Origin: Rhizophagus irregularis
Lineage: Eukaryota; Glomeromycota; Glomeromycetes; Glomerales; Glomeraceae
NCBI RefSeq assembly: GCF_026210795.1
Contig: NC_089433.1
Span: forward strand, 4,117,001-4,181,000
Length of the DNA stretch: 64,000 bases
Direction of reading: 5' to 3'
Shown: positions 5,668 to 37,900 of the stretch, in pieces
How positions within the stretch are numbered: position 1 is the first letter of the stretch
Layout of the letters: each line of letters begins with the position of its first letter
Notes under the pieces: generated by a model
Database searches by the model: none
What the model saw: only the letters and a program-made list of their open reading frames with translations
Told to the model about the DNA's origin: nothing
Translations under genes and position numbers: made by a program

Positions 5668-6288
5668 GTCGTCGGGCTGGTAGTGTGCCTCGCTACGCTC
5701 CTCCCACCTTGGCCTCGCGGCCTCACAGTACCTACATCCCCCCTCCGTGGGGCAGGTTTACCTGCCACAGTACCATGGTCTGCCACGGTATTTTTCCACT
5801 TATTTTTTTTCTACATTTTTTCTTATATATAACTTACTATGACAACTATGGCAACTATGGCAGACTACTTAAAAACGGAATAAAAACGCGAATAAAGCCG
5901 AAATCAGACAGAATCTCCTGCCATAGTACCTGCCATAGTACGAAAAACCTTATAATAATACTATGGCAGCCTTAGTCAGCCCCTTAGACCCCAAAACCCG
6001 ATTCACGCTATGATTACCCTTTATATACTCACCTAGACCCCCAAGTAACACCCCCTATGTCCTGAACTATGGCAGCCGAACTATGGCAGCTGAACTATGG
6101 CACCCGAATTATGGCACCTGAACTATGGCACCCGAATTATGGCAGCCGAACTATGACCCCAAGTATGACCCCCTATGTCCTGAACTATGGCACCCGAACT
6201 ATGACCATCAAACTATGACCACCGAACTATAACCACTTGCCCCCGTCAGAAAAAATACATTCGGCAATTGAAGATTAGGTAACTATAA
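5668..6288 (+). repeat. Left terminal inverted repeat of the Polinton
   Basis: About 620 bp starting GTCGTCGGGCTGGTAGTGTG, matching 28405-28965 in inverted orientation nearly throughout. It is about 60 bp longer than the right copy because of extra copies of a 14-15-bp unit (GAACTATGGCACCC and variants). CTATGGCA or its complement TGCCATAG recurs more than a dozen times. The inner edge carries ATTGAAGAT, so both TIRs bring the same putative promoter to the first gene inside. Open frames within the TIR are not credible genes. Confidence 0.9.
6267..6275 (+). promoter_or_regulatory. Shared ATTGAAGAT promoter-like motif, left TIR
   Basis: ATTGAAGAT sits 24 bases upstream of the ATG at 6299. The same motif occurs at comparable distance before other genes of this element. 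Promoter function is inferred from recurrence and position. Confidence 0.5.
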
Positions 6289-6823: not shown

Positions 6824-7144
6824 CTAATCTGTCTTTCTCTTTTTTGCTTCCTTAAGGTATTTATCAATACACTGTTTACACGCGTCATCAGCCTCTAAAA
6901 TTTTTTGCCCAAGTTTTTTGCATTGCCGATTATACGCCGTCTGATGTCTTTTAGCCGCGGTTTCTTTTTTCTTCTCCTTGGTTTTCTTTTTGATAACCCA
7001 GTCTATCCCAGTAAAAGTATTCTTATGCATCCCACAAACTACACAGTCACCATGTAAACGATAGCAGCCATTTGTGGTCATATCTTGTATTTCACTAGCA
7101 GTCTCGGTTTCCTTCTTACACTTTAGGCAGTAAAATCGTGTCAT
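6824..7144 (-). CDS. Small zinc-ribbon protein of Polinton/large-DNA-virus type
   Basis: 106 residues from the ATG at 7144. The open frame runs further upstream but only with non-ATG starts and on top of the integrase gene. The N-terminus is FYCLKCKKET, then a TTNG turn, then GDCVVCGMHKN. This CxxC, NG, CxxCG pattern matches small zinc-binding proteins seen in Polintons and large DNA viruses (DUF5679-like). The middle is very Lys-rich and there is a late CKQC pair (about residues 88-91). It is divergent to the integrase with 44 bp between starts, so the two probably share a promoter region. A nucleic-acid-binding role is likely from family and charge. Confidence 0.65.
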   Translation of the reverse strand: MTRFYCLKCKKETETASEIQDMTTNGCYRLHGDCVVCGMHKNTFTGIDWVIKKKTKEKKKETAAKRHQTAYNRQCKKLGQKILEADDACKQCIDKYLKEAKKRKTD

Positions 7145-7188
7145 CTTAAGATTTGAAGTCCGAAATCTTTCCTTTAATTTGTCGTAAT

Positions 7189-8280
7189 ATGTCGCATTTA
7201 GAGAATTATTACAAATACTACAATCTCTCCGGAGTACCGGCACGAATTCTAAAAGGTGAGGAGCACTACAACCTATACAAAAAGCCCTTAAAGGAAAAGT
7301 CATCAGAGCGTCCACGAGTAGTTGTATGGAAATCAAATGCGACGCATCAGGCAGATCTCGCAGAGATGCCAGTCGACCCCAAAGGATTCCACTATTTCCT
7401 CGTAGTGGTGGAAGTCGCGGGTAAACGAGTCGATGCAGAACCCCTAAAGGATAAGACTGCAAATAGGATTCTAAACGGGTTTGTCAAAATCTACAGAAGA
7501 AATCGTATTAAGCCACCAACACACAGACTGGAGACAGACTCCGGATCAGAATTCACCAATGATCAGGTACGTGATTTTTTCCTGAACAGCCTAGGGGTAA
7601 TGATGAGGTTCGGAGAGCCAGGAAGACACAAACAGCAGTCATATGCCGAACGAGCTATCCAAGCTATTCAAGAACCTCTTCTCAAACGAATGGTGGCACA
7701 GGAGTTGAAGACTGGGGTGACATCCGTGGAATGGTCAGAAGATTTCTGTGATGTAGTTAATAAAATAGATAAACTCTGGCAAAGAAATCCCCCAGACATT
7801 CCGACTGGGTCACCCAAGGTGTCAAAAAAGACGGAACTTCTCTCTGAAGGAACGCGTGTTCGAGTAAAGTTAGATGAACCTATCTCAGTACTCGGGAATA
7901 AACTCCATGGAAAATTTCGTACAGGTGATATAAGATGGAATCCCAATATCCGTGTCATCAAAAAAATGATCCTCTCACCCGAACAGCCTCCTACGTATCT
8001 TCTTGATGGACCACACGGGCGACTAGGTGTATCCAGATGTGCATACACCCGAAAAGAGTTGCAGATTGTTCCAGAAAATGAACATCCCCCACCTAACTCC
8101 GTGATAAGAGGGCAACCCGAAAGATTTGTACCTGAGCGGATACTCCGGCATCGCATCAGGAAGGGTCAAGACCAGTATCTAGTCAAGTGGGAACGATACC
8201 CAGATACCGAAGCCACTTGGGAACCCGCTGACCGGTTGGAGGAGGATGTCCCCGATTTAATCCGCAAGTTTTGGGAATAA
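7189..8280 (+). CDS. RVE-type integrase with C-terminal chromodomain
   Basis: 364 residues from the ATG at 7189; the frame is open slightly further upstream without a better start. The DDE triad is visible: D56 in HQADLAEM, D117 in ETDSGSEF and E154 in SYAERAIQ, the last two 36 residues apart. No HHCC zinc finger is seen. The C-terminus (about residues 316-364) is a chromodomain: PERILRHRIRKGQDQYLVKW followed by ERYPDTEATWEP. This enzyme would cut and join the element ends and explains the short target duplication. Chromodomains on integrases bind modified histones and can steer insertion. It is convergent with the protease ORF, with 14 bp between stops, and appears intact. Confidence 0.92.
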   Translation: MSHLENYYKYYNLSGVPARILKGEEHYNLYKKPLKEKSSERPRVVVWKSNATHQADLAEMPVDPKGFHYFLVVVEVAGKRVDAEPLKDKTANRILNGFVKIYRRNRIKPPTHRLETDSGSEFTNDQVRDFFLNSLGVMMRFGEPGRHKQQSYAERAIQAIQEPLLKRMVAQELKTGVTSVEWSEDFCDVVNKIDKLWQRNPPDIPTGSPKVSKKTELLSEGTRVRVKLDEPISVLGNKLHGKFRTGDIRWNPNIRVIKKMILSPEQPPTYLLDGPHGRLGVSRCAYTRKELQIVPENEHPPPNSVIRGQPERFVPERILRHRIRKGQDQYLVKWERYPDTEATWEPADRLEEDVPDLIRKFWE

Positions 8281-8294
8281 AAAATAAATATTCC

Positions 8295-9062
8295 CTATTT
8301 TTTGTCTCCTCGATTCACGTCAGAAACTATCGGGATAAAACCATTCTTCTCATTACAAGTAAGGGCGATATGTTCACGTGATTCATGGACATCATAATTG
8401 TAACGTTTCAGACACGTCCGGCTCAATCCAATCTCCCTATGCTTGTAATCGCTTAAAACCGCGAGGTCCTCAGTGATAATACAATCAGGGGTTAGTTTGA
8501 TTGACACACCTTTTACCATGCCGAATGTCCTACCAGATCCCGGAGCGCCGGATATGTTATGTGTAATACTCTTGTCGATATCCAACCCTAATTCTTCAGC
8601 GGCTTCTCTCTGAATAAAAGACGCGTTAGCACAAGTGTCTGCTAAACACTGAATTGCTATCCCATTGACCTCCCCATCCAGCGCTAAAAGATCTTTAGTA
8701 TTCTCCAAACGAGCTATGTCAATATCCATCGGGTCATCTTCCCTGATATCCTCTTCTTGTTTTTCCTCAACTAGGTCTTCTGGAATCTCCGTACTTTTAC
8801 GAGCAGACTTTAATTCTTCCCGAAGAATCTCGCGGAGTAATTTCCTAAAATCTGCAGACCTTAATAAACTTAATGAATCATTTTTGGTGACGGCTTTTAT
8901 AAGTGTAGGCTTACTCCTAGTAACCTTCACAGGAATCTTAATAGGAGTCATTTTAACTGATTTTTTTGGAACAGATTTAAGAAGTTTCGAGATACTTACA
9001 CCCTTATCCGAGTTTACTTTTTTTTTGTACTTCGAACCGCACAAATCCGAAAACCACCTTCC
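8295..9062 (-). CDS. Retropepsin-like aspartic protease, -1 frame to gag
   Basis: The frame is open from 9062 and overlaps the end of gag by about 50 bp. It has no ATG near its start: the first in-frame codon usable as a start in the overlap is TTG, and the first ATG is about 30 codons in, so expression as a Gag fusion is likely. The N-terminal third is basic, the middle acidic. The active-site region is CLADTCANASFI near residue 136 counted from 9044, with Cys where retropepsins usually have Gly after Asp-Thr. A downstream HREIGLSRTCLK segment fits the second conserved region. It would cleave Gag. There is no reverse transcriptase or RNase H after it; the ORF ends and the convergent integrase begins. 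Confidence 0.75.
   Translation of the reverse strand, partial: GRWFSDLCGSKYKKKVNSDKGVSISKLLKSVPKKSVKMTPIKIPVKVTRSKPTLIKAVTKNDSLSLLRSADFRKLLREILREELKSARKSTEIPEDLVEEKQEEDIREDDPMDIDIARLENTKDLLALDGEVNGIAIQCLADTCANASFIQREAAEELGLDIDKSITHNISGAPGSGRTFGMVKGVSIKLTPDCIITEDLAVLSDYKHREIGLSRTCLKRYNYDVHESREHIALTCNEKNGFIPIVSDVNRGDKK
9014..9030 (-). promoter_or_regulatory. Candidate -1 ribosomal frameshift site (A9 run)
   Basis: On the minus strand gag ends ACA AAA AAA AAG TAA. The nine A residues (9018-9026) contain an A-AAA-AAG heptamer, a known slippery type, immediately before the gag stop, and the protease frame is exactly -1. One missing A in the assembly would also create this arrangement from a fused gag-pro ORF. 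Confidence 0.6.
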
Positions 9063-10507
9063 TCATCAGGAACAATTTTCAAGTCATCAAAACTCACGGT
9101 ATTAGTATCAATATCCATAGCATCATCATTAAGATCGAGGTTTCTCATTGCTTGGGCTAATTCCAAATCATCGCGTCTATCTTTAGCCTTCTGAAGTCGC
9201 TTTGGAAATCTTTTAGACGTCTCATATCCCATAATAAGATCAATAACATGTTGATCATCCTCACTAGTCCATTCAGGAGCATCAGGGTCATCACCAACAT
9301 CATGATCTACATAACCATCATCCCAATCAGGATCCTGATGATCCTGAACAACGCGTGGCCGTGGCTTCGGCCGAACAGGTTTAATCTGTTGTCTATAGAC
9401 CGGTGGTTTACGAACTGGCTTAGATGCTTGTAATTGTTTAAATTGCGCCTGAAAATTCTTGGTAAGTTCCTCGGCTTGTGCCTTGAGCAATTCTTGTAAT
9501 CGTTTTTGAGTAATAACGTCTGTCGACCTTTGTATTACAGCACCTTCGTGTGGAGTCACGGGATGAGTATAGCCAGCTAATTCCTCTTTTTTAGCCTTTT
9601 CAATACCCTGGCGCCTTTGTAATCTATAGAACATTTCGCCCTTTCGTCGTTCAAGATCACTCAATCTATCGATTAATATATTAAGAGGTGCCACCCCGAT
9701 TCTGGAAGCTTCAATAACATTTTCCGGCAAAAGTCCTCTATAGAACTGGTCAGTAACCATGATTTGATTATATCCTACAATATCCCCAGCCCTCTCAACT
9801 CGCTTATAGTAAGATCGAACAGGTTCACCTTGTTCCTGGTAAAGGTTACTAAATCGTATTTGAAGTCTTTCTTCCACGACGGTTGGAAAATTTGTGCGCA
9901 TATGCATAAATGCTTGATCCAGGAGAATCCCCTGTAAGACTATCGGTTGATTCTGAACAGCAGCATTGAATGGACCTCCATGATCTCCCAACCCATTAAC
10001 GGGTAGATGAGTAGGACGTCCGCTCGCACGCCTCCACTGCTCTTCAACTTTAAAATTTGTTCTAACGATATCAGCGCGTGATGGGAAAAATGCGTCTCCA
10101 ATAGTTACCGCCGCATTAACCCCAACTAGAGAATATGCATGAGCAGCAGATCCAGGCACATAAGTATTAGGATGTAGTCGTCCAGCACCAGCATTTTCAG
10201 GAACAACCAAAGCTCTGAATGCTCGGCGAGTGGCACCGGCTCCACCATTTGCAGCAGCCACTAACCGAATATTCGAGAGTTCCCAATTTTTTCCAGTAAG
10301 TTCCGCATCAAACCACCTCGCCGCTTCATCTCTCATACAGCTACGAAGAACCCCCATCGCTCGCATCCGACCAGGAGGCGCACCGGCATCGTCCAATGGA
10401 TCAATACCAACGGTATTAATATACCCTAAAAAGTTATCAATAAAAAGATTAAGATCTTCATCTTCCCGACCATGAAATATGGGGGCAGCTATACCAACAG
10501 CAGCCAT
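9014..10507 (-). CDS. Retrotransposon-type Gag (capsid) protein
   Basis: 497 residues from the ATG at 10507. Features typical of Ty3-like Gag: an N-terminal PIFHGREDEDLNLFIDNFL, then RDEAARWFDAEL, and later IRFSNLYQEQGEPVRSYYKR followed by QFYRGLLPENVIEASRIG. A basic stretch (RKPPVYRQQIKPVRPKPRPR) and an acidic region follow; there is no CCHC zinc knuckle. It would assemble a retroviral-type capsid. It overlaps the upstream coiled-coil gene by 19 bp and the protease ORF downstream, forming a compact minus-strand cassette. It is unrelated in pattern to double-jelly-roll capsids. It is intact, which argues against a random dead insertion. Confidence 0.85.
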   Translation of the reverse strand: MAAVGIAAPIFHGREDEDLNLFIDNFLGYINTVGIDPLDDAGAPPGRMRAMGVLRSCMRDEAARWFDAELTGKNWELSNIRLVAAANGGAGATRRAFRALVVPENAGAGRLHPNTYVPGSAAHAYSLVGVNAAVTIGDAFFPSRADIVRTNFKVEEQWRRASGRPTHLPVNGLGDHGGPFNAAVQNQPIVLQGILLDQAFMHMRTNFPTVVEERLQIRFSNLYQEQGEPVRSYYKRVERAGDIVGYNQIMVTDQFYRGLLPENVIEASRIGVAPLNILIDRLSDLERRKGEMFYRLQRRQGIEKAKKEELAGYTHPVTPHEGAVIQRSTDVITQKRLQELLKAQAEELTKNFQAQFKQLQASKPVRKPPVYRQQIKPVRPKPRPRVVQDHQDPDWDDGYVDHDVGDDPDAPEWTSEDDQHVIDLIMGYETSKRFPKRLQKAKDRRDDLELAQAMRNLDLNDDAMDIDTNTVSFDDLKIVPDEEGGFRICAVRSTKKK

Positions 10508-11193
10508 ATCGTATTTTGTGGATGGTTGAGAGGATGTGGAGGAGGGTTCAATTGTCTAATCCGAAACCATTGTACTTGGATACGCAGAGCGGCTATTTGT
10601 TGGAAAAGTCGATTCCTAAGACGTCCCAATGTCCGAATTCCAAAAAGAACCCGATTATTGGCATATACAAGCCGATTTCGTGCCGCATCACGCTCGCCTA
10701 TAGCTCTATTACGTTCACCTATAGCTCTATTACGTTCTCCTCTCATAAGATTATATTGCTGCTGAAAACGACGATTAGTCGTCCGCATACCACCAAACTC
10801 ACGTTCCAATTCAGCCAAATTAGCTTCTAAACCAGTAATAGTATCTTGTACGTTATTTAACTCATCTTGTGTAAGACCTAACAAACCCGTTTGAACCTCG
10901 AGTTCATCTTGTAATTCATCGCGTTCTTTTCGAGATCGATCGCGTTCCGCTTTTAATATATCGTGTTCTTCGTATGTTTCTCTACAGCGATGAATTAATA
11001 AATTAAGAGCATGTTTAAGACGATGGTTGGCATTTTGTACATCTCGATTAACAACCATGCGATCACTGACAGTTAAAAAATCTGTTAGATCCTTAATTAC
11101 CGCAACTAATGGTATATTATTCATATCACGCAAATCCCTAGGAGGCGGTCCAGTAGGCTCTGAAGGAGTATAAATTGCAATTGGTGTCGACAT
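10489..11193 (-). CDS. Coiled-coil protein upstream of gag
   Basis: 234 residues from the ATG at 11193. A Pro-rich head is followed by a long charged coiled coil (about residues 75-175), including the near-tandem GERNRAIGERNRAIGERDAA. That repeat is also visible in the DNA as a short tandem duplication near 10695-10740. The C-terminal end is hydrophobic and Pro-rich. The stop lies inside the start of gag, so the two are probably cotranscribed and gag may be reached by reinitiation. A scaffold or capsid-cofactor role is plausible from position but unproven. It is divergent to the packaging ATPase, with 31 bp between starts. Confidence 0.75.
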   Translation of the reverse strand: MSTPIAIYTPSEPTGPPPRDLRDMNNIPLVAVIKDLTDFLTVSDRMVVNRDVQNANHRLKHALNLLIHRCRETYEEHDILKAERDRSRKERDELQDELEVQTGLLGLTQDELNNVQDTITGLEANLAELEREFGGMRTTNRRFQQQYNLMRGERNRAIGERNRAIGERDAARNRLVYANNRVLFGIRTLGRLRNRLFQQIAALRIQVQWFRIRQLNPPPHPLNHPQNTIWLLLV

Positions 11194-11224: not shown

Positions 11225-12448
11225 ATGGATCTTTATGTATACAATTTGGACGAGTACACGACCGACTCGAGACAGGGTAATGAGTTTGCCCCATCATGGC
11301 CTTTCCGTCTTGCCGTAGCAGGAAGTTCTGATTCGGGTAAAACAACTATGATCATTAATTTGTTAATGGGAGACAAGAAGGCAAAGGAGGATGGCGAAAG
11401 GTACATATTATGTGATGCGGTAATTCTAGTTGGCAGATACCTCGATGAACTGAAGTGGGCAGTCGTACGTGAATTTTTCAAAGAAGAAGAAATTCCGTTT
11501 ACCGCAGTATCCCATAGTGAGATTCCAAATGTTAAGGACTTCAACTCCACCCAGGCTACTGTGGTAATCTTCGAGGATTTGATGGATGCGCCTAAAAAAA
11601 CCCAGGATCTCATCACTGGATTTTTTACACACGGGCGTCATAAAAATATCTCGTGTATCTATGTGGCCCAAAGATTCTTTACCATTCCCAAGGCTATTCG
11701 TGAAAATGTGAATTATATTTCCCTATATGGAGGTCACGGAAGTTTGACCGATACTAAGAGGATCATCCGCCAGTATACAGAAGAATCGGAGTCACTAGCT
11801 CCAGTAATCGATGACCTTACTCTACAACGCGAATTTATAGTATTTGATCTTAGAAGATCCAAGAGCGATCCGTTATCCATTCGGGTTAGATGGGATACTA
11901 GTCTCAGTTCGATCACCGATCAATCTCAGTTCGATCCTAGTTCGATCTCAGTTCAATCTCCGTTCGATCCGAGTTTGAATCCAGTTCGATCCCCGTTCGA
12001 TCCGAGTTTGAACCCAGTTCGATCGAAGTTTAGTCCTTATGGCCAGAAGGCCGTAGCTGAAGCAAAAAAGTCCTCCCAGCTAATCGAGTTTGCTCGGGAA
12101 TATCCATTGCCTAAAGAGAGAAAACACCTTCTCGTATCTGGTGTTATAGCTAAGAACGCAGATACCTGGATTAAGTACGTCTTTCGGGAAGCCTACGGAC
12201 TATCTGGTAAGACCCTGGGATCAGACTTCCAAAACTTCTTAGCGAAAGTACGGGATAGGACCACGAAGACTGAAATTCCAAAACCTGAGACCGTAAAGGA
12301 GTTATTCTCCCGGTATGAAACCCTGAAGTCTAGTCACCCTTTGGATAATAAAAAAATAATAGAAGGCATTGGAGTCCTTTTACAGATCTTTTCTAAGGGC
12401 CACATGGACCGTCGAGCATTACGAGTAGGGATCAATAGTATTTTGTAA
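11225..12448 (+). CDS. A32-like DNA packaging ATPase (FtsK/HerA type)
   Basis: 407 residues. Walker A is GSSDSGKT (33-40), Walker B is VVIFEDL (113-119), and GRHKNISCIYVAQ (137-149) matches the sensor region of A32-type ATPases of Polintons and large DNA viruses. These enzymes pump DNA into a preformed capsid. After the ATPase domain, residues about 230-270 contain a short tandem repeat (QSPFDPSLNPVRSPFDPSLN), then a helical C-terminal domain of about 130 residues that I do not recognise. The 3' end overlaps the convergent 186-residue gene by 17 bp. Its retention beside a Gag cassette is the reason to suspect a chimeric virion. Confidence 0.88.
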   Translation: MDLYVYNLDEYTTDSRQGNEFAPSWPFRLAVAGSSDSGKTTMIINLLMGDKKAKEDGERYILCDAVILVGRYLDELKWAVVREFFKEEEIPFTAVSHSEIPNVKDFNSTQATVVIFEDLMDAPKKTQDLITGFFTHGRHKNISCIYVAQRFFTIPKAIRENVNYISLYGGHGSLTDTKRIIRQYTEESESLAPVIDDLTLQREFIVFDLRRSKSDPLSIRVRWDTSLSSITDQSQFDPSSISVQSPFDPSLNPVRSPFDPSLNPVRSKFSPYGQKAVAEAKKSSQLIEFAREYPLPKERKHLLVSGVIAKNADTWIKYVFREAYGLSGKTLGSDFQNFLAKVRDRTTKTEIPKPETVKELFSRYETLKSSHPLDNKKIIEGIGVLLQIFSKGHMDRRALRVGINSIL

Positions 12449-13144: not shown

Positions 13145-13729
13145 TTAGGAAGCGCAGTCCTTGCACAACTTGTCCGTTAAGTCACTTGGGCTTACAGGCA
13201 TGAGACATTCCCTACACAACTCAATATTAAGCTCTGCAAGTCTCGGGGCATGGTCCTCCAAAGTTCGTGGACGACCGGAAGGACCGGAGGAAGGTGTCCC
13301 GTTAGTCGTATCCTGCTGTAAGATAAAATCATCATATTCATCTTGGTCAGCCTGAATAGCGGCCCTGATTTGTTGTATAACATTGAAAGTTAACCGCTGG
13401 CCATCAAGATTTTCCTCATTATAGTGTGTTTCATTGATGATTTCCTTTATAAGCTCCTCCTCTTCAGAATGAACAAGGTAGTAGTCCTCAACTACCTCGT
13501 AGTCACTCTCAACCAATCTATGATACGTTCTAGTACCGTGTTGAATATAGCGTCCTGTATCTGTATTTAAATATACAGGTTGTTCCTGGTGTGGAGGCGG
13601 TGCGGTTTGTCTACGGACAAGCCTTCCATCGATATAATCATGGGATTCCATAACTATTCGATTAAAGGTATCTCCACCAACACGGATTGGACGTCCGGTT
13701 ATAGGATTAGTTATATAAGGGTATGACAT
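13145..13729 (-). CDS. Protein with repeated NP-x-TGR motifs and a zinc finger
   Basis: 194 residues, ATG at 13729. Two similar segments, ITNPITGRPIRVGGDTFNRI (about 6-25) and LNTDTGRYIQHGTRTYHRLV (about 54-73), resemble the N-P-x-TGR-x-I motif of viral 2-cysteine-adaptor-like domains common in large DNA viruses. The C-terminus has CRECLMPVSPSDLTDKLCKD, a four-cysteine zinc-binding pattern. The middle is acidic. Function unknown; an adaptor or structural role is an inference from the motif. ATCTTCAAT (complement of the shared promoter motif) sits 37 bp upstream. Confidence 0.65.
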   Translation of the reverse strand: MSYPYITNPITGRPIRVGGDTFNRIVMESHDYIDGRLVRRQTAPPPHQEQPVYLNTDTGRYIQHGTRTYHRLVESDYEVVEDYYLVHSEEEELIKEIINETHYNEENLDGQRLTFNVIQQIRAAIQADQDEYDDFILQQDTTNGTPSSGPSGRPRTLEDHAPRLAELNIELCRECLMPVSPSDLTDKLCKDCAS

Positions 13730-13774: not shown

Positions 13775-13813
13775 TTACAATAACCAAGTGACATCGTCAT
13801 CAGTCCTTGTCAC

Positions 13814-14078
13814 AGCAAATATGGCATAGTAGCCTTTATCTTTATTAAATTTATTTAACGAACTTACAAAAATAAAATAAAATTTTCAAAGTACAAAAAA
13901 GAAAAATAAAATTAACTAAAAACAAAACTATATAGTCTCCAAAACAGTAATAAAGCTATAAAATAATTCAAAAAGAAAAATCGCATAACACTAAAACTAT
14001 CCTGATCCCCCGCCTAAATATATTTCAACCTAAGAAGAGGCAACTATGCAAACAAACCAACGAACAATGCGCCCATTA
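13814..14078 (-). other. 3' untranslated region of the LINE
   Basis: 265 bp between the ORF2 stop and the 3' boundary, A-rich on the plus strand around 13860-13990. No long poly(A) tail is visible at the end. Confidence 0.5.
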
Positions 14079-17000
14079 TTAAAATCGACACACCACCCTG
14101 CTAAAGCTGTTAGTAAGTTGCACCGTTAGACGACCCATAAAACCCGAATAGTGATTAAACCAAGGCAAACCATATTTCATCGAGTTCAATAAATAATCAA
14201 CGTCGGAGTCACGTGCGGCGTCGGAAAGGGTCGGAGGAGGTAAAGTTGAGAAAGGTAAGTACGTGGACTTTGGCAAATTTGAAGGCCGAGAAAGTTTGAG
14301 TTTATGAGTAATATTCATCGCGTCTTCCCATTTAGATTTATCATAGGAGCGCGGTAACCAAATTCGTTTTCTGATCTTCTGGATAAAGTGATTGTGGATA
14401 GCAGAAATAACCTTCATCGCAGAGTTACGTGGAATAGAAAGTTCTTCAAAAAATTCGACAAAGGATTTCGGAAGGCAGCCACAGACGAGACTATATGAAG
14501 TCCAATTTGAAGAAGAAAAGGACCAACAAGGAAGAGATTTAAATTTGTTAATAATTAAAGAGGGATCTTTCTTGACGAGATCACCAGCTTCCTGAAGTTT
14601 GTTGATAAAATGATGTTGGTAGGAGAGGAGAATCTGTTCCATAGCGATTCGTCTACATTTGCACATAAACAAGTGCATGAAATCTTCCTTGGAGTCGAGA
14701 CATGAACGACACAATAAGATGTCGATATATAAGTCCGGGCGAATTCTTTTAAGATGTTCCAAAGTAGGTAAATCTTCCAAAAAGAGTTTGAATTTGAAGG
14801 TGCGATGAGAGGAAGCATGAGCACGAGTAAAAGAAGCGTCATGCTGAGGATCCGAATTTAAAGAGAACCAGGTAAGATCCCAATCAATCACGAAATCTGA
14901 AGTAGAAGATAAAGCAATGGTAAAGTTAAACCGCGATAAATGCGTTAATCTATGCATCCACAGCATTTGCGAATATTGCTTAAATAGGCGTCGTGGGTTA
15001 GATTCGCATAAAATATCATCATATTTTAATAAGAAATCGTGAGGAGATACTTGATCCAGATCAGAAAGAAGAATCGCTGAAGAAGAGGTATGCGCAGAGT
15101 TGGCCAAAGAGTCCGCGTAGTCGTTGTAGAAATTACCAGAGTGACCTTTCACTTTGACAGCCGTGACGGACAAAAATTTTGATGAAATGAGACGTTCAAT
15201 AATAGCCCAGAGTTCAAAATTAGTGGTCTTGTAATAAAGCCTACTGTTGGAATAAGAAAAGGTAGCACATAGACGAAGACCATCTATGGCAGATTGAGAG
15301 TCAGTATGAATAGTGACCGTTGAAAAGGGAGGAGTGACTGTAAGAGCAGCATGTATAGCGGCAATTTCAGCTCTTGTAGAAGAAGGCCAATTACGAATGA
15401 TTCCATGAGCGTGAGCAGCGATAGATTGGAAAAAACCAGCGCCATCGAGAACTTGAACCCAAGACCAACCCATAGAAACATCAGGAGTGCCAAGGTTAAT
15501 TAAAGAACCATCGGTATAAAAACAATAATGATTATCAGGAGGAGTCACTAACGGTGAGGCAGCAAAAGCAAGAGGAGCAACCGGACCCAAAAAGGAAGAA
15601 GGAGAAGGAGAAGGAAGAGTAACCACATCTTCAAGTGAAAAATTAGGTTGAACGTCCAAACGACCATAATAGGATCTTACAGATTCGTCAAGGTCCGCCC
15701 AAGTAAAAGGAGAAGTAATAGTGGTGGTGTCATGTCTAATACGCTCCTGCGTGGTTGGGAGAATTAAAGATCTAAGAGGAGAAAGTTTTGGGATGATACA
15801 TAGAGGAGTAACATCTGTTGGATTGCTTTTAGTATGGGTAACCGGTACATGTTTAGAACAACCAGGACAAGGAGTGAGCGTGATAACATCATTAGGTCGA
15901 GTCACACAATCAGAGGTCCAATGGACAATCTTGCAGGAATATTGTTGTTTACTAAGTTGTTTTCCAAAAAGAGGAGAGCCATCTTCATCCAAAGTCACGA
16001 TCCATTTCATGGATTTTCTAGAGGAACCAAAAGCTGGAACCAAGTCAATGTTTGAAGGAATAGCATCGGAAGAGAATTGATCCAAGAGTAGAGAATTGGA
16101 ATTTGGGACAGTGACACATTGGTGAATGTCGCTGAACCATTTGTGCGGGAGGACTCGATGACCTTTCCTACTTGATAAATTGGACAAATAAACATTCCAA
16201 GTGATCATATGGGTTCCATGAGGCGTAATAAATTGAGATAGGTAATAGAGTTGCAAACATCTTAGACGTCGGAAGTAAGATATAAAAATTTTTGGAGTCA
16301 TCACTTCAAATAAAGGCGTATGACCGTTGGATATGGTGAGGTCAGACAAGGTTGACAGTCGAGAACGTGACAACTTGAAAGGAGTGGTGGTCAGGAGAGC
16401 AATAGTGCAAGCGATATAATCCTGTTTAAAAGCAAAAAGTTTAGACCATATAGTCCAATCTTTAACTAACAAAGGGGAAATAGGAATCAAAAAGGAAAAT
16501 TGAATTAAACGTAATCTATATAAAAACAAAATTTTCATAAAGGAAGAAGAAGAATTAGCTAACAAAAATAGATTAGTTAAATGTGTTTGTGATTGGTGAA
16601 AAAATAAATTAATCAATCCCAAGCCTTGAGATAAAAATAAAATGGAATCCGGGAGTACACGTGAAAAATTGGCCTTGTGTTTAACCAAGGAACGGATACT
16701 GCTGGTTGCCGAGGCACATTCAGATTCAGACAGGTGAGTGACTTGCATGCGATATTCCAATTTCGGAATAAGGACGGTGTTGTGTAAATAAACTACTTGT
16801 TTAGCAGATAGTTTGGCAGGGCGAACGGTGGCAGCGAAAGAGTTACATTCTCTAGCAACTTGATTTCTGACAAAATCGCGAGATCTGGCGACATTGAACC
16901 AGACGCCCAAGAAGCGGAAGGAGCTATTCATGGAAATGGGCACAATAGAAATGGAAGGAACTTCGTTCAATCCAGATAATTGCAAGTCAAACACTACTGG

Positions 17001-19700
17001 AGAAGGCGAGGAAACTGAAGAGGAAGGCAACGAGTTAGTAATTAAAACATATTTGTTGTGATTAGCGGAAGTATTATTGATTTGATAAAATTCTTCCGTA
17101 ATAGAGAGCATCGATTCCATTCCAGATTTGGATGATGATATTAAAGTGGAATCATCCATAAAGACCAAGTTGTTGATTCGTAATCCATCTGAACTTGTCG
17201 CAGCCAAGGGATTAGATAAAGAAGGAGCATGAAGTATATATGGATCCATCATTTCATTCTTAAGAACAGTCAATAAAGGGTCTATATATATAACCCATAG
17301 TAAAGGAGAGATAACTTCGCCTTGATCTATACCAATACGAACGCGGTAAGGAGGTGTAATTCCATGAGCAGTAAAAACGCAATTAGAGCGTTTCATGAAA
17401 AAGGATAAAATAAACTTGGTGGCAGAAGCAGGAAGTTTAATGCGTTCTAAAGCAAAACGCAACATCTTGAGATCAACCGAGTCGAAAGCCTTCGAAATAT
17501 CTTGTGAAAGGATCCAAAGCGGCGATTTGTTGACTTGAGCATCATGAATAATAGATTCCAGGACGACAATAGGGTCGCGACAGGAACCACCAGGGAGACC
17601 GGCGAAGTTTCCTCCTTTGAGAACTTCATTCGAAGCCAAAATGGAGGCGAGACGATTATAAAAGAGCTTGACCAAAGATTTTCTAATTACTTCAAGTAAA
17701 GTAATAGGTCTTGTATTTTTGAGTTGACATTTCCATTCGTGAGGTTTAGGGATAGGGAAAACCATAGCTTGACGCCATAAATCAGGAATATCTGCAATGC
17801 GGAAGCATGATTGGACCAGGATTAGGACTAAAGCAGAAGTATTGGAACCTAGATGTTTAAGCATCTCATAAGTAATCATAGAGGGACCAGGAGCTTTGTC
17901 GTTAGGCATAGAAGAGACCGTAGACAACCATTCTTTAAGAGTAGGAGGATCCAATAGAGAATTATAAATAGAAGAATCTACATCGTCCATAGGGCGATAA
18001 GCAGAAGACCATCTTTCCGGAAGAGCGGAAATGTTATCAGGAGGAGATGATTTAATAGGGACGGAGTTCTGGAAGTGGTTGATGACAGCGTCATCAATAT
18101 CATGTGGGTCCGTTAAAAGTTTTGGCTGTGTGGGATGGTCAATAAAGACACGATCTAAAGTAATACGGCGTCGAGTCCGTGAGAGAGCAGAATTAATGAA
18201 TGAGGAAATATCTGTTTCAAAATTGTTGTCCCTATCAGCCAATTTGGCACGAATGGAAGAATCTTGAAAGTCTTTTTCTTTGAGAAGAAGGAGGCCATAA
18301 AGGGCACTAGAAATAGTCTTTAAGGAATCTAATAAAGAACTAAAATCGTCTTGCCTACATGTGGATAAAGAAGTAGGTAAAGTAGGGGGAGAGGGAAAAA
18401 TCTTCTTATAAAGATGAAGAATTTTTTGAAGTCGAATAAAATGAGTGGACCAAGTACGTTCATATCTATTATAATACGTGAAAGGATATTTTCGCAATAA
18501 GCGTATCGAATGCAAAAGTCGGCTAAGGAAACGATAGTGTTGAGTTAAGGCTTCCAAATCCTTGGGCACCGTAGGCGTGTGTTGATTTCCAACAAGAACA
18601 GACGGAAGGGAGGCATTAGCAGCTTTCACAATACGCGAATGTAAATATTCGCATTGTTGATTGATGTGCCATGTTGAGAAGGTTGAAGGGAGAACGTCGC
18701 ATAGGGAGTCAGTGTGAGTAGAAAAAGATTCCCATTGTTGAGTAGTGACTGAATCAAATTTGAATATTCGGCGAGTTCGACGTTGAAGTTGTTTGGCACG
18801 AGCAACCTTGATGGACGCAACCAAAAGTGAATCGTCAAAGTACGTGATGATAGGATTATGGTCAGAAGAGCAGGTATCTTGGGCGTCAAATATGTAAGAA
18901 GTAAGAGCAAAGCCTTTAAGCATGGGGCAAGACCACACATAGTCTATACGAGTGACTTGATCATCACGGTGAAAGGTGCCTAAGGAATCAGAAGCGTTAA
19001 CAGGAATGGTTTCTTCATAGCCATGTGATAAAAGATGATGTAACAAACGATAAGCTCGTTGAAAAGCAATAGCAGGGCGATTAAAATAAATAGGGTAATA
19101 AGTGTCAAGGTGCATATTAAAATCACCACAAATGGCGTGATAAAAATTTTGTTGTTTGGTTTGCACCAGAAGTTGTAAAAGAAGGTCAATAGTTTCCGAT
19201 CGTAATTTAGAATCAGAAATAGGGGGAATGTATATTACAAAAATGCGAAATTTAACGTTGCCTTTAAAATAAAGATCAACAGATAAAATACGCGAGGAAT
19301 GTGAAATAAAATCTTGTACATGAGAAGCAAGGGATTTTTCAATAAAAAGGGAAACGCCACCAGTAGATTTGACTTGTTTAGTTTTATCTATGTCAGAGGA
19401 AAAGACAGTATAATTAGGAAGGCGTTTAGATAAAAAATGGATTTGTTTGGGGGATAAATGGGTATCTACGATACCACCAAATGAAATATGTTTAAGATTG
19501 AAAAAGTTTGAAATCTGTTCCATTTTAACTTGACTATTTTGGCGAAGACCATTAACATTAAAGGATGAAATAGTAAAAGAATTGGGGATAGGGGATAAAT
19601 TCGAAGTAGTAAATAAAGATTCATGTTCAGAAAAATTAAAAATATCTTCAGAGTTGGGCGGGTTTCGAACAAACGTATCATAATCAAAATTGTCAGTCAT
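14079..19700 (-). CDS. LINE ORF2: endonuclease, reverse transcriptase, RNase H
   Basis: 1873 residues, uninterrupted, ATG at 19700. The N-terminal APE endonuclease shows ISSFNVNGLRQN, CGDFNMH (about 190) and SSDHNPII. The reverse transcriptase shows NDKAPGPSMITYEMLKHL, DISKAFDSVDL, IDQGEVISPLLW and FMDDSTL with the catalytic pair at 849-850. RNase H starts near FYTDGSL (D1397) and includes SSTRAEIAAIHAAL, HTDSQSAIDG and KGHSGNFYND. A late CRSCLDSKEDFMHLFMCKC segment may bind zinc. Nicking, target-primed reverse transcription and RNA removal could all be done by this protein, so the copy could be active in trans if ORF1 is not needed intact. Confidence 0.93.
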   Translation of the reverse strand: MTDNFDYDTFVRNPPNSEDIFNFSEHESLFTTSNLSPIPNSFTISSFNVNGLRQNSQVKMEQISNFFNLKHISFGGIVDTHLSPKQIHFLSKRLPNYTVFSSDIDKTKQVKSTGGVSLFIEKSLASHVQDFISHSSRILSVDLYFKGNVKFRIFVIYIPPISDSKLRSETIDLLLQLLVQTKQQNFYHAICGDFNMHLDTYYPIYFNRPAIAFQRAYRLLHHLLSHGYEETIPVNASDSLGTFHRDDQVTRIDYVWSCPMLKGFALTSYIFDAQDTCSSDHNPIITYFDDSLLVASIKVARAKQLQRRTRRIFKFDSVTTQQWESFSTHTDSLCDVLPSTFSTWHINQQCEYLHSRIVKAANASLPSVLVGNQHTPTVPKDLEALTQHYRFLSRLLHSIRLLRKYPFTYYNRYERTWSTHFIRLQKILHLYKKIFPSPPTLPTSLSTCRQDDFSSLLDSLKTISSALYGLLLLKEKDFQDSSIRAKLADRDNNFETDISSFINSALSRTRRRITLDRVFIDHPTQPKLLTDPHDIDDAVINHFQNSVPIKSSPPDNISALPERWSSAYRPMDDVDSSIYNSLLDPPTLKEWLSTVSSMPNDKAPGPSMITYEMLKHLGSNTSALVLILVQSCFRIADIPDLWRQAMVFPIPKPHEWKCQLKNTRPITLLEVIRKSLVKLFYNRLASILASNEVLKGGNFAGLPGGSCRDPIVVLESIIHDAQVNKSPLWILSQDISKAFDSVDLKMLRFALERIKLPASATKFILSFFMKRSNCVFTAHGITPPYRVRIGIDQGEVISPLLWVIYIDPLLTVLKNEMMDPYILHAPSLSNPLAATSSDGLRINNLVFMDDSTLISSSKSGMESMLSITEEFYQINNTSANHNKYVLITNSLPSSSVSSPSPVVFDLQLSGLNEVPSISIVPISMNSSFRFLGVWFNVARSRDFVRNQVARECNSFAATVRPAKLSAKQVVYLHNTVLIPKLEYRMQVTHLSESECASATSSIRSLVKHKANFSRVLPDSILFLSQGLGLINLFFHQSQTHLTNLFLLANSSSSFMKILFLYRLRLIQFSFLIPISPLLVKDWTIWSKLFAFKQDYIACTIALLTTTPFKLSRSRLSTLSDLTISNGHTPLFEVMTPKIFISYFRRLRCLQLYYLSQFITPHGTHMITWNVYLSNLSSRKGHRVLPHKWFSDIHQCVTVPNSNSLLLDQFSSDAIPSNIDLVPAFGSSRKSMKWIVTLDEDGSPLFGKQLSKQQYSCKIVHWTSDCVTRPNDVITLTPCPGCSKHVPVTHTKSNPTDVTPLCIIPKLSPLRSLILPTTQERIRHDTTTITSPFTWADLDESVRSYYGRLDVQPNFSLEDVVTLPSPSPSSFLGPVAPLAFAASPLVTPPDNHYCFYTDGSLINLGTPDVSMGWSWVQVLDGAGFFQSIAAHAHGIIRNWPSSTRAEIAAIHAALTVTPPFSTVTIHTDSQSAIDGLRLCATFSYSNSRLYYKTTNFELWAIIERLISSKFLSVTAVKVKGHSGNFYNDYADSLANSAHTSSSAILLSDLDQVSPHDFLLKYDDILCESNPRRLFKQYSQMLWMHRLTHLSRFNFTIALSSTSDFVIDWDLTWFSLNSDPQHDASFTRAHASSHRTFKFKLFLEDLPTLEHLKRIRPDLYIDILLCRSCLDSKEDFMHLFMCKCRRIAMEQILLSYQHHFINKLQEAGDLVKKDPSLIINKFKSLPCWSFSSSNWTSYSLVCGCLPKSFVEFFEELSIPRNSAMKVISAIHNHFIQKIRKRIWLPRSYDKSKWEDAMNITHKLKLSRPSNLPKSTYLPFSTLPPPTLSDAARDSDVDYLLNSMKYGLPWFNHYSGFMGRLTVQLTNSFSRVVCRF

Positions 19701-19747
19701 TAGGACACAATGATAATTATAAACGGGGAGGAGAATTAAGAAGTCAA

Positions 19748-21878
19748 TTATTGCGAAGGAGCAGAAGCTCGATCGGAGGGAGAACCACCAAGAGAAGCAA
19801 TAAAACCTTGAATGGAACCAGTGAGCGATTGTAGAGTATCTTTAATCGCTTTTTGATCTTGGATAACCGAGTTCAATTCGTCTTGCGGGGAAGGGGTATA
19901 AGTGGATGTGAGAGCTGAGTGCGGAACAATGGTAGGTGCAGATTTGGGGGGAGTGGATTTCTTAGGACCAGAAGACAAAGGAGCATTAGGATGTGGGATT
20001 AAGGTACCAGTAATTTCAGGAGGGTCTTCTTCCATCCGATCAGGTTCAGAATTGACAACAGGAGCGGAAGGAGGATTGATGCCTAAATGGGCTTCAATAG
20101 CAGATAGCCGTTGATTGTTAAGTTCAAGATGGGAGATGCGGGATTCCACACGAGCAACATCTTGTTGAAGGGTTTGCAATACGTTAAGTATCTTAAGGGC
20201 AGCCTCAAGAGCATTAGAAGAATTCGGATCCGAGAGCGGAGCACGAGCATTGGACGAAAAAGAAACAGATCTATCTTTGCCTTTTCGATTATTGGAAGGC
20301 GTGCGTCCATAAGCAGTTGAGGAGGAGTTAACAGGACCAGAGGAGGAGGGTATAGTATTGTTAGAGTTATTATTATTATTATTAGGGCGGTTAGAGTGTG
20401 AATTCGGACGTTGAGCAGAGGCAGAACGATCTCGAGATTTAGAGCGAGAGCGAGACCTAGAATTATTACGTGGAGATCTTTGTTGAGCAGGTCTTTGGCC
20501 AATATTAAAACGGTCTTTAAGGGCGGCAACAGGATCACGTGTACGTGAGCGTCCACGACGTAGATTGAGCGGGCAAGAGGTAGGAGCACAGCCGAGTTTA
20601 CCACATCGGTGGCAAAGAGCTTTTGAATCGTTGGAAGAACCCCACCGAAGAGTACGACCTTGGAATCCGATTGTTTGTTCCATAGCGGCATCCATTGTCG
20701 CTTGTGAATTGAAGGTAACATAAGCCCATGGTTTAGGTTTATATGAGTTTAAGGAAAGAGGAATATTAATAGCTTTGGCTCCATGTTCTTTAACTAATGG
20801 AGCGAGATGGATATCTTTAGTGTTAGCAGGGAGTCCAGAAAGGACAGCAACAAATTCACGACGAGCAGCTTTTTGATCCACAGAATAGTGACAGGGAGTA
20901 ACACGCAAACAAGTGGAGAAACAATAGACTGCCCATTGGGTGGTGAAACGGGCGATGGCATCGGCATGATCATAGACGATGCGGGCTTGTTGCATCTTAG
21001 CACCTTTCCTTGAATAGAGATGGAGGGAGAGCAAATTGCCAAATTTTTTAAAGTAGGATTGTAGTTGAGGTTTCGTGATGAAGAACGGTATATCGGTGAC
21101 TTGGATAGCTCGGAGATCTTCATCAGATCGGAGCTGTTTGGGATCGTACAAGTGGAATTGAAGGTCCAGAAATTCAGAGTGCGTACTACCAACACACAAG
21201 TCACGAGCCTCCGCAGTGTGAAAATGAATGATAAGACGTTTAGCGTCCCCTGAACCAGTCATACGAGCTCGACCGGTATATGATTCATAAGTTTCTAAGA
21301 ATAGATTATTAACGGCATCAATGATTGCCTTATTAGTTTTAAGTTTCTCAAGAGTTTGGGGAGCGGAGTTGGGCGCAGCCGCAGCCAGAAAATCCTGACG
21401 ATTAATGGTAATGGTGGGGAGGGATCGACAGCCTGATCGGGCGATGTACCATCATTTACGTCCATATTAAGGGACGCGTTAGGGATGAGTTATTTTCTTT
21501 GTTTCTTGGTGCATGAATAGACGCGTTAGCTCCAGAGGACGCGTCTTGGCCAGGCGCAGTGGGCGCAGCAGAATTAATCAGGGCAGATGCTTGAGTATTT
21601 TCTAGGGGAGTGCTGCGGGAATTATTTTGTTGAGGAATAGCGGTCGAAGTTGAACCAACTAATCCACCGTCAGCCAGCGCGTCGGCAACGAAATCTTCAT
21701 AGTCTTCATCCATGGAGTCTTTTGTAATGATACGGGAACGTTTTTGGGAAGTGTTATCACTATTGGAACCAGAGTTGTCAGAGAGTTGTTTTTTATTATT
21801 TTTCTTTTCTTGACGAGCAGCCTTATTACTATTAGGATTAAAGCTGCCGCCACCTCTTTTAGCAAAGTTTCTAGACAT
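19748..21878 (-). pseudogene. LINE ORF1: RRM/zinc-knuckle RNA-binding protein, frame-broken
   Basis: The ATG at 21878 begins MSRNFAKRGGGSFNPNSNKA. The frame must step -1 between about 21465 and 21500 (into NASLNMDVNDGTSPDQAV), and -1 again at a run of four G on the plus strand (21416-21419) to reach PTITINRQDFLAAAA. From 21262 on it is open to 19748. The intact C-terminal part has two RRM-like segments (IQVTDIPFFITKPQLQSYF and AVLSGLPANTKDIHLAPLV), a CHRCGKLGCAPTSC knuckle, an Arg/Ser-rich region and a late coiled coil. This is the usual RNA-binding ORF1 of such elements. It ends 47 bp before ORF2. Confidence 0.75.
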
Positions 21879-21920
21879 GTTAAAAGGTATGAGTTGGGTA
21901 AAATATAAGAGTTGTTAGTA

Positions 21921-22010
21921 CATCAGTCCTTGTCACGAAACACGAGGATACCTGATGATGAGGTTACATGGTCATCAGTCCTTGTCACAAAACACGAGGA
22001 TACCTGATGA
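21921..22010 (-). repeat. Two hairpin repeats at the LINE 5' end
   Basis: Copies at 21921-21958 and 21972-22010. On the minus strand each reads TCATCAGG...AGGACTGATG, with TCATCAG able to pair with CTGATGA and TCCT with AGGA around a CGTGTTTYGTGACA loop. A 17-bp partial copy (TCATCAGTCCTTGTCAC on the plus strand) is at the 3' end of the element, 13797-13813. Confidence 0.75.
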
Positions 22011-22364: not shown

Positions 22365-22757
22365 TCATACCACTCCCAGTCCCCAAGGATCGCCTCCCCA
22401 TCTATGTTCACTTAATGCATGCTCTATGGTTTCCCTCTCTTGGGGGTCCACGACCATCCCATTCCTAAGCATTTTCTCCATAATATAAAGCTGATCCTCG
22501 GTGAGGCGGTCTATCCATCTTTTATAGAAGTCGTTTACATCTTCAAATGTTATCCAGTCAACATTCCCTTTTTCGAATGGCTTTCCAAGAGCTCGGACAT
22601 ACCCGATCATAGTGGCATAATTTTTCCACCTCTTATATGCCTCTTGACGAACTTCCTGCCACCACACTCTATCTACCTTACTCACTGCAATAAGGTCAGT
22701 ATCCGGGATCTTTGCGACAATGCGTTTGACTATTTCTACTGGTAATCGGTCCAACAT
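22365..22757 (-). CDS. Polinton-borne F-box protein
   Basis: 130 residues, ATG at 22757. The N-terminus MLDRLPVEIVKRIVAKIPDT followed by DLIAVSKVDRVWWQEVRQEA matches the F-box pattern (LPxEI, then DLxxxxxVxxxW). F-box proteins bind Skp1 and bring substrates to SCF ubiquitin ligases. The remaining 85 residues are too short for a known substrate domain. The gene is probably host-derived and could modify host protein turnover in favour of the element, which is inference. The shared promoter motif lies 27 bp upstream. Confidence 0.7.
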   Translation of the reverse strand: MLDRLPVEIVKRIVAKIPDTDLIAVSKVDRVWWQEVRQEAYKRWKNYATMIGYVRALGKPFEKGNVDWITFEDVNDFYKRWIDRLTEDQLYIMEKMLRNGMVVDPQERETIEHALSEHRWGGDPWGLGVV

Positions 22758-28404: not shown

Positions 28405-28965
28405 TTATAGTTACCTAATCTTCAATTGCCGAATGTATTTTTTCTGACGGGGGCAAGTGGTTATAGTTCGGTGGTCATAGTTTGATGGTCATAATTCGGG
28501 TGCCATAGTTCAGGTGCCATAATTCGGGTGCCATAGTTCAGCTGCCATAGTTCGGCTGCCATAGTTCAGGACATAGGGGGTCATACTTGGGGGGTCTAGG
28601 TGAGTATATAAAGGGTAATCATAGCGTGAATCAGGTTTTGGGGTCTAAGGGGCTGACTAAGGCTGCCATAGTATTATTATAAGGTTTTTCGTACTATGGC
28701 AGGTACTATGGCAGGAGATTCTGTCTGATTTCGGCTTTATTCGCGTTTTTATTCCGTTTTTAAGTAGTCTGCCATAGTTGCCATAGTTGTCATAGTAAGT
28801 TATATATAAGAAAAAATGTAGAAAAAAAAATAAGTGGAAAAATACCGTGGCAGACCATGGTACTGTGGCAGGTAAACCTGCACCACGGAGGGGGGATGTA
28901 GGTACTGTGAGGCCGCGAGGCCGAGGTGGGAGGAGCATAGCGAGGCACACTACCAGCCCGACGAC
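28405..28965 (-). repeat. Right terminal inverted repeat of the Polinton
   Basis: About 560 bp, inverted match to 5668-6288, ending CCAGCCCGACGAC. It has fewer copies of the CTATGGCA-bearing unit than the left copy. The near-identity of the two TIRs suggests fairly recent insertion or ongoing homogenisation. Confidence 0.9.
28418..28426 (-). promoter_or_regulatory. Shared ATTGAAGAT motif, right TIR
   Basis: Plus strand ATCTTCAAT, 42 bp upstream of the helicase ATG at 28376; the mirror of the site at 6267. Confidence 0.5.
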
Positions 28966-32899: not shown

Positions 32900-33524
32900 C
32901 TATACGTAAAAGCAAAGGATCGAGAATGAATATTAGTAATTTGTAAATTTAATAAATACTAAATGTACACAAAATATATCATTAATTAGTCCGAAATGTA
33001 ACGAAGGACTATATATATCTACGCAAGTTGAAGTGTCATTCTGATATATAAAAATAAAAATAAATATATGTTTATCAAGAATCATACTATAAACATGTTA
33101 AGAATGATATTTTGGCTTTGCATGATGTGATATTGTGCAACAAAAAAACTTTAAATGGTACTTCGGACTTAATAGCGGATTCCGTTTCGTATTATTCGAA
33201 AAATATCGATGATTAGAAAATTTTTTCACTTTAACACTCTGTTAACCAGTCATCTCTATGTATCAATACTCATAAATAGTAAATTTTGTTTGCCTTTTAA
33301 TATTAGCAAAGATTTTTTTTTTATTGATAATATCATACTAATAAATAATACTTTACAGAATATGACGACTATGGCGTAGTTAAAACTTAATTTTTAATTT
33401 GGAAAGAATCTGCATCATTTAACCATATTTAAATAAAATAAACTTACAGGGACTTGAACTTTTATAGTTTTATACACTTTCTCCTCACACATATTAAAAC
33501 TATTTTTTTTTTATCTAAAATAAT

Positions 33525-37568: not shown

Positions 37569-37900
37569 TAAGTTTGGTATCATTGTATTTGTTTATTTGG
37601 ATTTTTTTTCATCATTTATTAAAATATTAAATTTATTTTAAAAAAGGGATTTGTTTTATGTTTATTAATAATGTACAATATTCATACACATATCCTTTTT
37701 TCGATTAACATACGCTAATTTATTTGCAAATCGCATTTAAATTTATTTTTAGAAGTTCATCCATCATTTGAAAAAACGTATTTATATTTCATTTCAACTT
37801 AAACTAATAATTTGTAAAATTATGTTCTATTTATTGCTATTTTTTTTATATTTAATATAACTACCAAAGAGGTATCATTCGAATTTTCTTCATATATAAG
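37569..37900. other. AT-rich spacer
   Basis: Downstream flank of BTB-TLDc copy 2. Nothing recognised. Confidence 0.5.

Follow-up and report, generated by a model that had tools for sequence, protein, structure and literature searches.

A retroelement-type Gag-protease module in Polinton-type DNA elements of Rhizophagus irregularis as a candidate stand-in for the jelly-roll capsid

The window analysed here is a stretch of 64,000 nucleotides of the mycorrhizal fungus Rhizophagus irregularis (assembly GCF_026210795.1, contig NC_089433.1, positions 4,117,001 to 4,181,000), and it contains a Polinton/Maverick-type DNA element in which a coiled-coil protein, a retroelement-type Gag and a retropepsin-like protease are encoded by one minus-strand cassette between the integrase and an A32-like packaging ATPase. 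The cassette keeps its place in most copies of the element examined and evolves under constraint, modules of the same kind are present in two further element families, and no double-jelly-roll major capsid protein (MCP) was found among the single open frames of the window and its sister copies. The reading that we favour, although we hold it to be about as likely as not, is that these are Polinton-type elements with a retroelement-derived structural module, in which Gag stands in for the missing capsid.

Composition of the Gag-protease cassette

An earlier note on this DNA had described the coiled-coil, Gag and retropepsin open reading frames (ORFs) as a single unit between the integrase and the ATPase, and the ORF coordinates agree (Table 1). 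It had also called these ORFs intact; they are as described, but the protease triad reads DTC and the polymerase, elsewhere in the element, carries an in-frame stop. Neither reverse transcriptase (RT) nor RNase H was found in the cassette, although the element does contain an RT, its sole match of this kind lying in an unrelated long interspersed nuclear element (LINE). No direct repeats of at least 40 bp were found to flank the cassette, which therefore has no long terminal repeats (LTRs) of that kind, so that what would characterize a Ty3/gypsy element is lacking from the unit.

Two other origins were rejected. A dead retroelement insertion would have left LTR or RT remnants, none of which was found in the cassette, and it does not agree with the synteny across copies; a Gag belonging to the LINE was discarded because ORF1 of the LINE encodes an RRM protein and is located beyond the ATPase.

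Conservation and constraint across copies

Searches of the R. irregularis assembly (146.7 Mb, 32 contigs) scored the best candidates only (for Gag the best 86 of 363), so that all copy counts are lower bounds. The copies closest to the window element, referred to as family 1, fall into clades A (which includes the window) and B. The order integrase-protease-Gag-ATPase was found in the same orientation in 43 of the 49 clade-A and 29 of the 34 clade-B Gag rows, and the cassette can therefore not be a stray insertion. Absence of the cassette from sister copies would have spoken against the earlier note, but the full syntenic set is present in 72/83 Gag rows, the 11 exceptional ones having one or two neighbours missing from the lists. 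The commonest gap between Gag and the ATPase was 718 bp in clade A (15 rows) and 811 bp in clade B (24 rows). Integrase rows amounted to 110 and ATPase rows to 108 in the genome, fragments included, and Gag or protease was located within 6 kb of 103/108 integrase rows and 94/100 ATPase rows.

Between clades A and B the capsid (CA) region, at 46% identity and dN 0.49, is the fastest-diverging part of Gag, while identities of 90-94% (most full rows), mostly 83-86% and mostly 81-88% were found for the integrase, the ATPase and the protease, respectively. Ratios of nonsynonymous to synonymous substitution (dN/dS) were calculated by the Nei-Gojobori method on those copies that were free of stops, taken from the window, from the 29 further clade-A loci of highest score and from a single clade-B locus. 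Median values within clade A were 0.28 for gag (13 sequences), 0.20 for pro (0.204; 24 sequences) and 0.39 for the coiled coil (23 sequences), and against the clade-B copy 0.39, 0.15 and 0.56, respectively; values between clades were tighter still for the ATPase (0.09) and the integrase (0.06), based on two clade-A copies. Choosing stop-free, high-scoring copies lowers these ratios somewhat, and CA is near saturation between clades (dS 1.6). Gag and pro evolve under constraint, which is in favour of the earlier note.

The module could in principle be a functionless retroelement fragment that was amplified along with an ancestral element, for which the stops present in many copies would speak (only 13 stop-free clade-A gag copies, window included, among the loci analysed). 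This explanation is already contradicted by the constraint on gag and pro, and CA is conserved at 28-46% identity across lineages and the slippage tract described below is conserved as well, so that we give it hardly any credence.

Identity and predicted fold of Gag

Taken alone, the Gag of the window gave no significant Pfam match, and it matches R. irregularis proteins at 99%. Retrotrans_gag was matched at E <= 1 by 30 of 50 members of its family (best value 1.5e-5), the window-family Gag aligned with the Gag of a second element in pairwise BLASTP at E 5e-26, and weak collinear matches, of very low similarity, were found with the genome's own Retrotrans_gag ORFs. The AlphaFold model of CA shows a two-domain helical fold of the kind found in retroelement Gag (predicted local distance difference test, pLDDT, 74; predicted TM-score, pTM, 0.66). 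All 50 Foldseek matches listed from the PDB were to retroviral CA or PEG10, the VIA rows aligning both CA domains; none of these rows, which are limited to Foldseek's own matches, was a jelly roll. A model of full-length Gag from 20 close sequences was unusable (pLDDT 33), and a profile of close Gag relatives found no Gag in the PDB; with a wider profile, matches to PEG10 and to Gag zinc knuckles began no lower than E 0.28, and a Copia particle protein appeared at 0.09. Scans of IMG/VR with Gag and the ATPase rendered no relative. We consider the identification of Gag firm, resting as it does on its relatives, the homology with the second element, the collinear matches and the predicted fold.

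The highest sequence identity among the fold matches listed, 23-24%, corresponds to the C-terminal CA domain of PEG10, and CCHC zinc knuckles are present in 31 of 87 proteins of the wider Gag family. Both would suit a Gag shell that packages RNA, the element's own mRNA or host RNA, in the style of PEG10 or Arc. The knuckle has been lost in family 1, however, and apart from the LINE no RT was found in the elements, which would thus themselves offer packaged RNA no route back to DNA; we take this possibility to be improbable.

Two further element families

Six loci whose Gag or protease is only distantly related were read (L031, L032 and L035 to L038). In family 2, a coiled coil-Gag-CCHC-protease module stands beside a family-B DNA polymerase (PolB) frame and an integrase in L035 (PF03175 2.6e-8 and PF00665 8e-9, respectively), and beside an integrase and a PolB-like frame without Pfam match in L036, where coiled coil, Gag and protease form one frame of 1,075 codons. 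In family 3, L037 and L038 have an integrase, an A32 ATPase (0.005 in L037 and 7e-11 in L038), a coiled coil-Gag-CCHC protein and a protease, and L032 combines coiled coil-Gag and protease with a polymerase in which the motif YGDTDS is present (PF00136 3e-13). The degraded relative L031 has a frame resembling an integrase (PF00665 at no better than 0.12). Inspection by eye of the ORFs listed for these loci showed no RT, nor did a Pfam scan of 19 ORFs, and no RVT domain is listed for 31 Gag-Pro relatives, for which lengths up to ~1,880 aa were allowed.

Identity to family 1 is 21-27% for the integrase and 28-32% for CA, and between families 2 and 3 it is 43-48% and 35-52%, respectively. Since the integrase identities go in step with those of CA, these sequences suggest that both have descended together for long. 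On the other hand, L032 and L038 are 78-81% identical in three other genes but only 33% in CA, and the CA of L032 is 52% like that of family 2, because of which, as judged from these alignments, CA modules have likely been exchanged between element families.

As to the individual loci, the polymerase of L032 (L032:5476-6999) is of the PF00136 type, unlike the organellar/viral type (PF03175) of families 1 and 2, which raises the question of whether polymerases have been exchanged too. The conserved coiled-coil protein of family 3 (L032:4032-4853, L037:47-907, L038:6997-8070) has by eye an apparent C-terminal membrane anchor and might be an envelope or membrane protein, and a large ORF next to the degraded Gag element (L031:3-2579) looks, likewise by eye, like a Helitron replicase.

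Gag-Pro might also be an interference gene, whose product co-assembles with and poisons the particles of host Ty3/gypsy elements or of competing elements. There are many Retrotrans_gag genes in the genome (150 rows, all above cut-off), and the rapid divergence of CA between clades A and B would fit as well. A poison subunit would nevertheless need neither the protease nor the slippage tract, both of which are kept; moreover, the cassette is present in three element families and is of very low similarity to the genome's own Gag. We consider this role very unlikely.

Jelly-roll capsid and Ulp1-type protease not found in the element

Capsid and protease genes of the usual Polinton type had been reported missing from the element, and none has come to light. 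Once the Gag, ATPase, integrase, PolB, helicase and LINE frames were set aside, the largest single open frame in the window and in the sister copies was of ~220 codons, and a double-jelly-roll MCP is larger than this, although an MCP gene made of many small exons might escape such a count. The argument rests on size because no jelly-roll profile of the libraries is known to detect Polinton MCPs; searches with PF04451 and PF00770 gave no match in this genome and were likewise silent in control genomes. No Pfam match to an Ulp1/adenovirus-type protease was found among the element ORFs, and the Ulp1-type protease PF02902 occurs at seven places in the genome, the nearest of them 147 kb from any listed row.

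Expression of the module

At the end of Gag, a tract of eight to eleven A residues followed by G and a stop was found in 31/31 family-1 loci (the window, L002 to L030 and one clade-B locus, L033), being A9 in 22, A8 in eight (L002, L003, L006 to L008, L019, L022 and L023) and A11 in one. A8G followed by a stop occurs just once in the 15.1-kb element, both strands considered, against a Markov expectation of 0.03, and A9-G-TGA is present also in L031, L032 and L038. The Gag of the window ends in A9-G-stop and its protease lies in the -1 frame with respect to Gag; the tract is a candidate frameshift site, with a classic -1 slippery context in 22 copies. Two clade-B rows have Gag and protease in a single frame of 737 codons.

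The GT/AG ends of a predicted intron of 95 nt recur at identical places in 30 of 32 loci, the clade-B locus L033 among them (L005 and L034 are one copy, and two loci are without the searched context), and database protein models join the coiled coil to Gag at this intron. A single gene, whose transcript is probably spliced, would give coiled coil-Gag, and slippage on the A tract before the Gag stop would add a smaller amount of Gag-protease.

Proposed capsid replacement and its main rival

Gag appears likely as a replacement for the capsid, since the elements retain the A32-like ATPase, integrase, polymerase and helicase but no jelly-roll or Ulp1-type gene was found. With its two-domain CA fold, Gag should assemble a CA-type lattice, and the shell would enclose the linear DNA of the element together with the integrase and would carry them to the integration site or from one nucleus or cell to another; the ATPase might take part in filling it. 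A more far-reaching version, in which a whole lineage of DNA elements of mycorrhizal fungi makes CA-lattice particles filled with double-stranded DNA that is synthesized by their own PolB, and trades CA modules between families, is only tentatively put forward. We know of no DNA virus with a capsid of this architecture.

Several observations weigh against capsid replacement. The support for it is computational, the shell and its packaging being predicted, and A32-type motors are not known to fill any CA shell. The 9 kb surrounding each of two family-2 loci showed no ATPase. The cassette and the integrase are convergent in family 1 and divergent in families 2 and 3, because of which a single acquisition of the cassette is not proven. 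A CCHC zinc knuckle is present in 0/120 family-1 proteins, its position being occupied by a basic C-terminal region. The A tract is A8 or A11 in 9/31 loci, which alters the relation of the Gag and protease frames, so that these copies may use transcriptional slippage, contain homopolymer errors or have decayed, and RNA structure downstream of the tract was not significant (z -1.1 and -0.6). Finally, the 'missing' MCP of Phytophthora infestans was later found, according to the part of PMC7805220 that was available.

The protease also belongs among these observations. Its match to PF13650 is above cut-off in spite of the triad, which is not the D-[S/T]-G of retropepsins: among 120 listed relatives, an open pattern found the motif in 101, and 101/101 read DTC, while a further three came from a pattern in which DT is already prescribed and 16 gave no match. 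Some relatives have DPG or DSA, and canonical DTG or DSG was read in family-2 and some family-3 loci. Because of DTC in family 1 and DPG or DSA elsewhere, maturation cleavage may, to judge from the motif, have been lost. The earlier note had argued for function from Gag and protease staying together; the DTC of the family-1 protease weakens this argument, but selection on the protease is strong. Its broader proposal of a capsid exchange agrees with the conservation of the cassette, the constraint and the lack of a detectable jelly-roll MCP, while the Gag shell and the DNA inside it go beyond these data.

The main rival is that Gag-Pro is functional but forms no shell, acting instead as a DNA-binding or chromatin-tethering multimer that would escort the integrase-DNA complex or condense the element DNA in what would be pure transposons. 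The cassette adjoins the integrase in most rows, a basic region replaces the zinc knuckle and is accompanied by the N-terminal coiled coil, the protease motif is degenerate, and MCP-less Polintons have been viewed, in the available part of PMC7805220, as having adopted a transposon life. Against a multimer of this kind speak the retained fold of both CA domains, the retained packaging-type ATPase and the conserved A tract, which could set the ratio of Gag to Gag-Pro. We regard this escort of the integration complex as rather unlikely, though it comes before the other rivals.

Comparison with known systems

The element resembles Polintons/Mavericks (Polintoviricetes) in its rve integrase with chromodomain, organellar/viral-type PolB, A32/FtsK-type ATPase, long terminal inverted repeats (TIRs) and size of ~15 kb without the LINE. 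It differs from them by its coiled coil-Gag-retropepsin and in that neither a double-jelly-roll MCP nor a penton nor an Ulp1-type protease could be found. In the accessible part of a survey, a full-length MCP was present in 46/72 Polintons, being therefore typical but not universal, the A32/FtsK-type ATPase in 83% and the Ulp1/adenovirus-type protease in 74% (PMC4028283). The lack of an MCP has already been published for early Polintons of Glomus intraradices (R. irregularis), the same organism and element class, in which it was undetectable and which gave rise to the idea of MCP loss; that account, in its available portion, makes no mention of a Gag-Pro cassette (PMC7805220). Mavericks are among the recent expansions in R. 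irregularis and are included in its curated transposable element library, again with no Gag-Pro module mentioned in the accessible text (PMC8647823, PMC11075540), and Ngaro retrotransposons inserted in virophages, as far as the available text describes them, are a different phenomenon (PMC8547959). Our literature search, whose coverage left most subscription journals outside, found no report of Gag in Polintons.

Ty3/gypsy elements and retroviruses share with the module the CA fold, the retropepsin, the zinc knuckle of families 2 and 3 and a possible slippage before the Gag stop; unlike them, the module has no RT, RNase H or LTR that could be found, the elements have a DNA polymerase of their own, and family 1 combines a DTC triad with the lack of a knuckle. 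The CA fold is likewise kept for functions outside retrotransposition in PEG10, Arc and other domesticated Gag genes, but here Gag belongs to DNA elements of three families with their own integrase and polymerase. The Gag of foamy viruses, with an N-terminal coiled coil, no zinc knuckle and DNA in the particle, is comparable in the first two traits, DNA in the particle being only proposed here; the comparison implies no homology, and foamy viruses are reverse-transcribing viruses with their own Pol.

High-rank virus classification is built around the type of capsid, and it is through the jelly-roll MCP that Polintons are linked to adenoviruses, virophages and giant viruses. If capsid replacement is correct, an abundant lineage would have stably swapped its capsid for a retroelement Gag. 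This would be one of the rare changes of capsid type in a DNA element, would explain the published puzzle of seemingly capsid-less R. irregularis Polintons, and would represent a third kind of Gag use, beside retroelements and domesticated host genes.

Organization of the window element and its surroundings

The TIRs of the window element are ~0.6 kb long, and ACTAC abuts both ends on the outside. Polintons/Mavericks usually have a target-site duplication of 6 bp, and here it is of 5 bp. The GC content is 36-47% per 1-kb window in the element versus mostly 11-36% in the surroundings. Once the LINE is subtracted the element amounts to ~15.1 kb, comparable to the sister copy L034 on contig C13, in which the end repeats (86 bp matched at 87-88%) span 658218-673230.

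Table 1. Features of the window element, with positions in the window
Feature	Position	Strand	Evidence and remarks
Left TIR	5668..6288	.	Best piece: 490/507 aligned bases same as right repeat
Conserved hypothetical gene, 171 aa	6299..6814	+	ORF; no significant Pfam match; also in sister copy L034
Zinc-ribbon protein (DUF5679)	6824..7462	-	PF18930 E 6e-15
rve integrase with C-terminal chromodomain	7153..8280	+	PF00665 6e-8, PF00385 7e-18
Retropepsin-like protease, triad DTC	8295..9044	-	PF13650 6e-8; frame -1 relative to Gag in window copy
Gag: CA N- and C-terminal domains at ~residues 1-290, then basic C-terminal region	9014..10507	-	No zinc knuckle
A9G tract, candidate -1 frameshift or transcriptional slippage site	9017..9026	-	Directly before Gag stop
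N-terminal coiled coil of Gag polyprotein	10489..11193	-	ORF; one frame with Gag and protease in family 2 (L036)
Predicted 95-nt intron, coiled coil to Gag in frame	10556..10650	-	GT/AG ends and database protein models
A32-like packaging ATPase	11225..12448	+	PF04665 E 6e-11
Conserved hypothetical, 186 aa	12432..12992	-	ORF; also in L033 and L034
Conserved protein, weak 2-cysteine adaptor match	13145..13729	-	PF08793 E 9.5e-4, under cut-off; also in L033 and L034
LINE insertion, foreign to element	13815..21970	-	RRM ORF1; endonuclease-RT ORF2; PF00078 3e-22
F-box-like small protein	22365..22757	-	PF00646 E 0.018, weak; also in L033 and L034
Conserved hypothetical, 153 aa	22867..23328	-	Also in L033 and L034
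Hypothetical, 177 aa	23411..23944	-	Listed in L034, not in clade-B L033
Family-B DNA polymerase	23999..25810	-	Identified via sister copy; window copy with one in-frame stop
D5-like superfamily-3 helicase	25933..28029	-	PF19263 4e-19, PF03288 2e-6
Right TIR	28405..28965	.	Pairs with left repeat

The polymerase gave no Pfam match in the window; in the sister copy it matched PF03175 (DNA_pol_B_2) at E 7e-6 and 25.6 bits, just under the cut-off of 25.8. Its frame is open in the sister locus L039, and there are other open copies in the genome. PolB had no match in the PDB or in phages, and a PHROGs scan of eight element proteins gave nothing convincing. The helicase of the sister copy matched PF19263 at 1e-17 and PF03288 merely at 0.14. 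In its N-terminal part, the polymerase frame (L039:1-1791) looks by eye like an OTU-type domain.

The LINE is flanked by a 19-bp target duplication, at 13796 and 21971, and is absent from the sister copy L034; it looks intact, with 8.2 kb, an RRM ORF1 and an endonuclease-RT ORF2 of 1,873 aa. Immediately to the left of the element, positions 4353-5311 of the window hold an AT-rich repeat array with short GGTTA-TAACC palindromes, and at 33450-37570 a unit of ~2.5 kb is present in two direct copies that hold related genes of a host repeat family.

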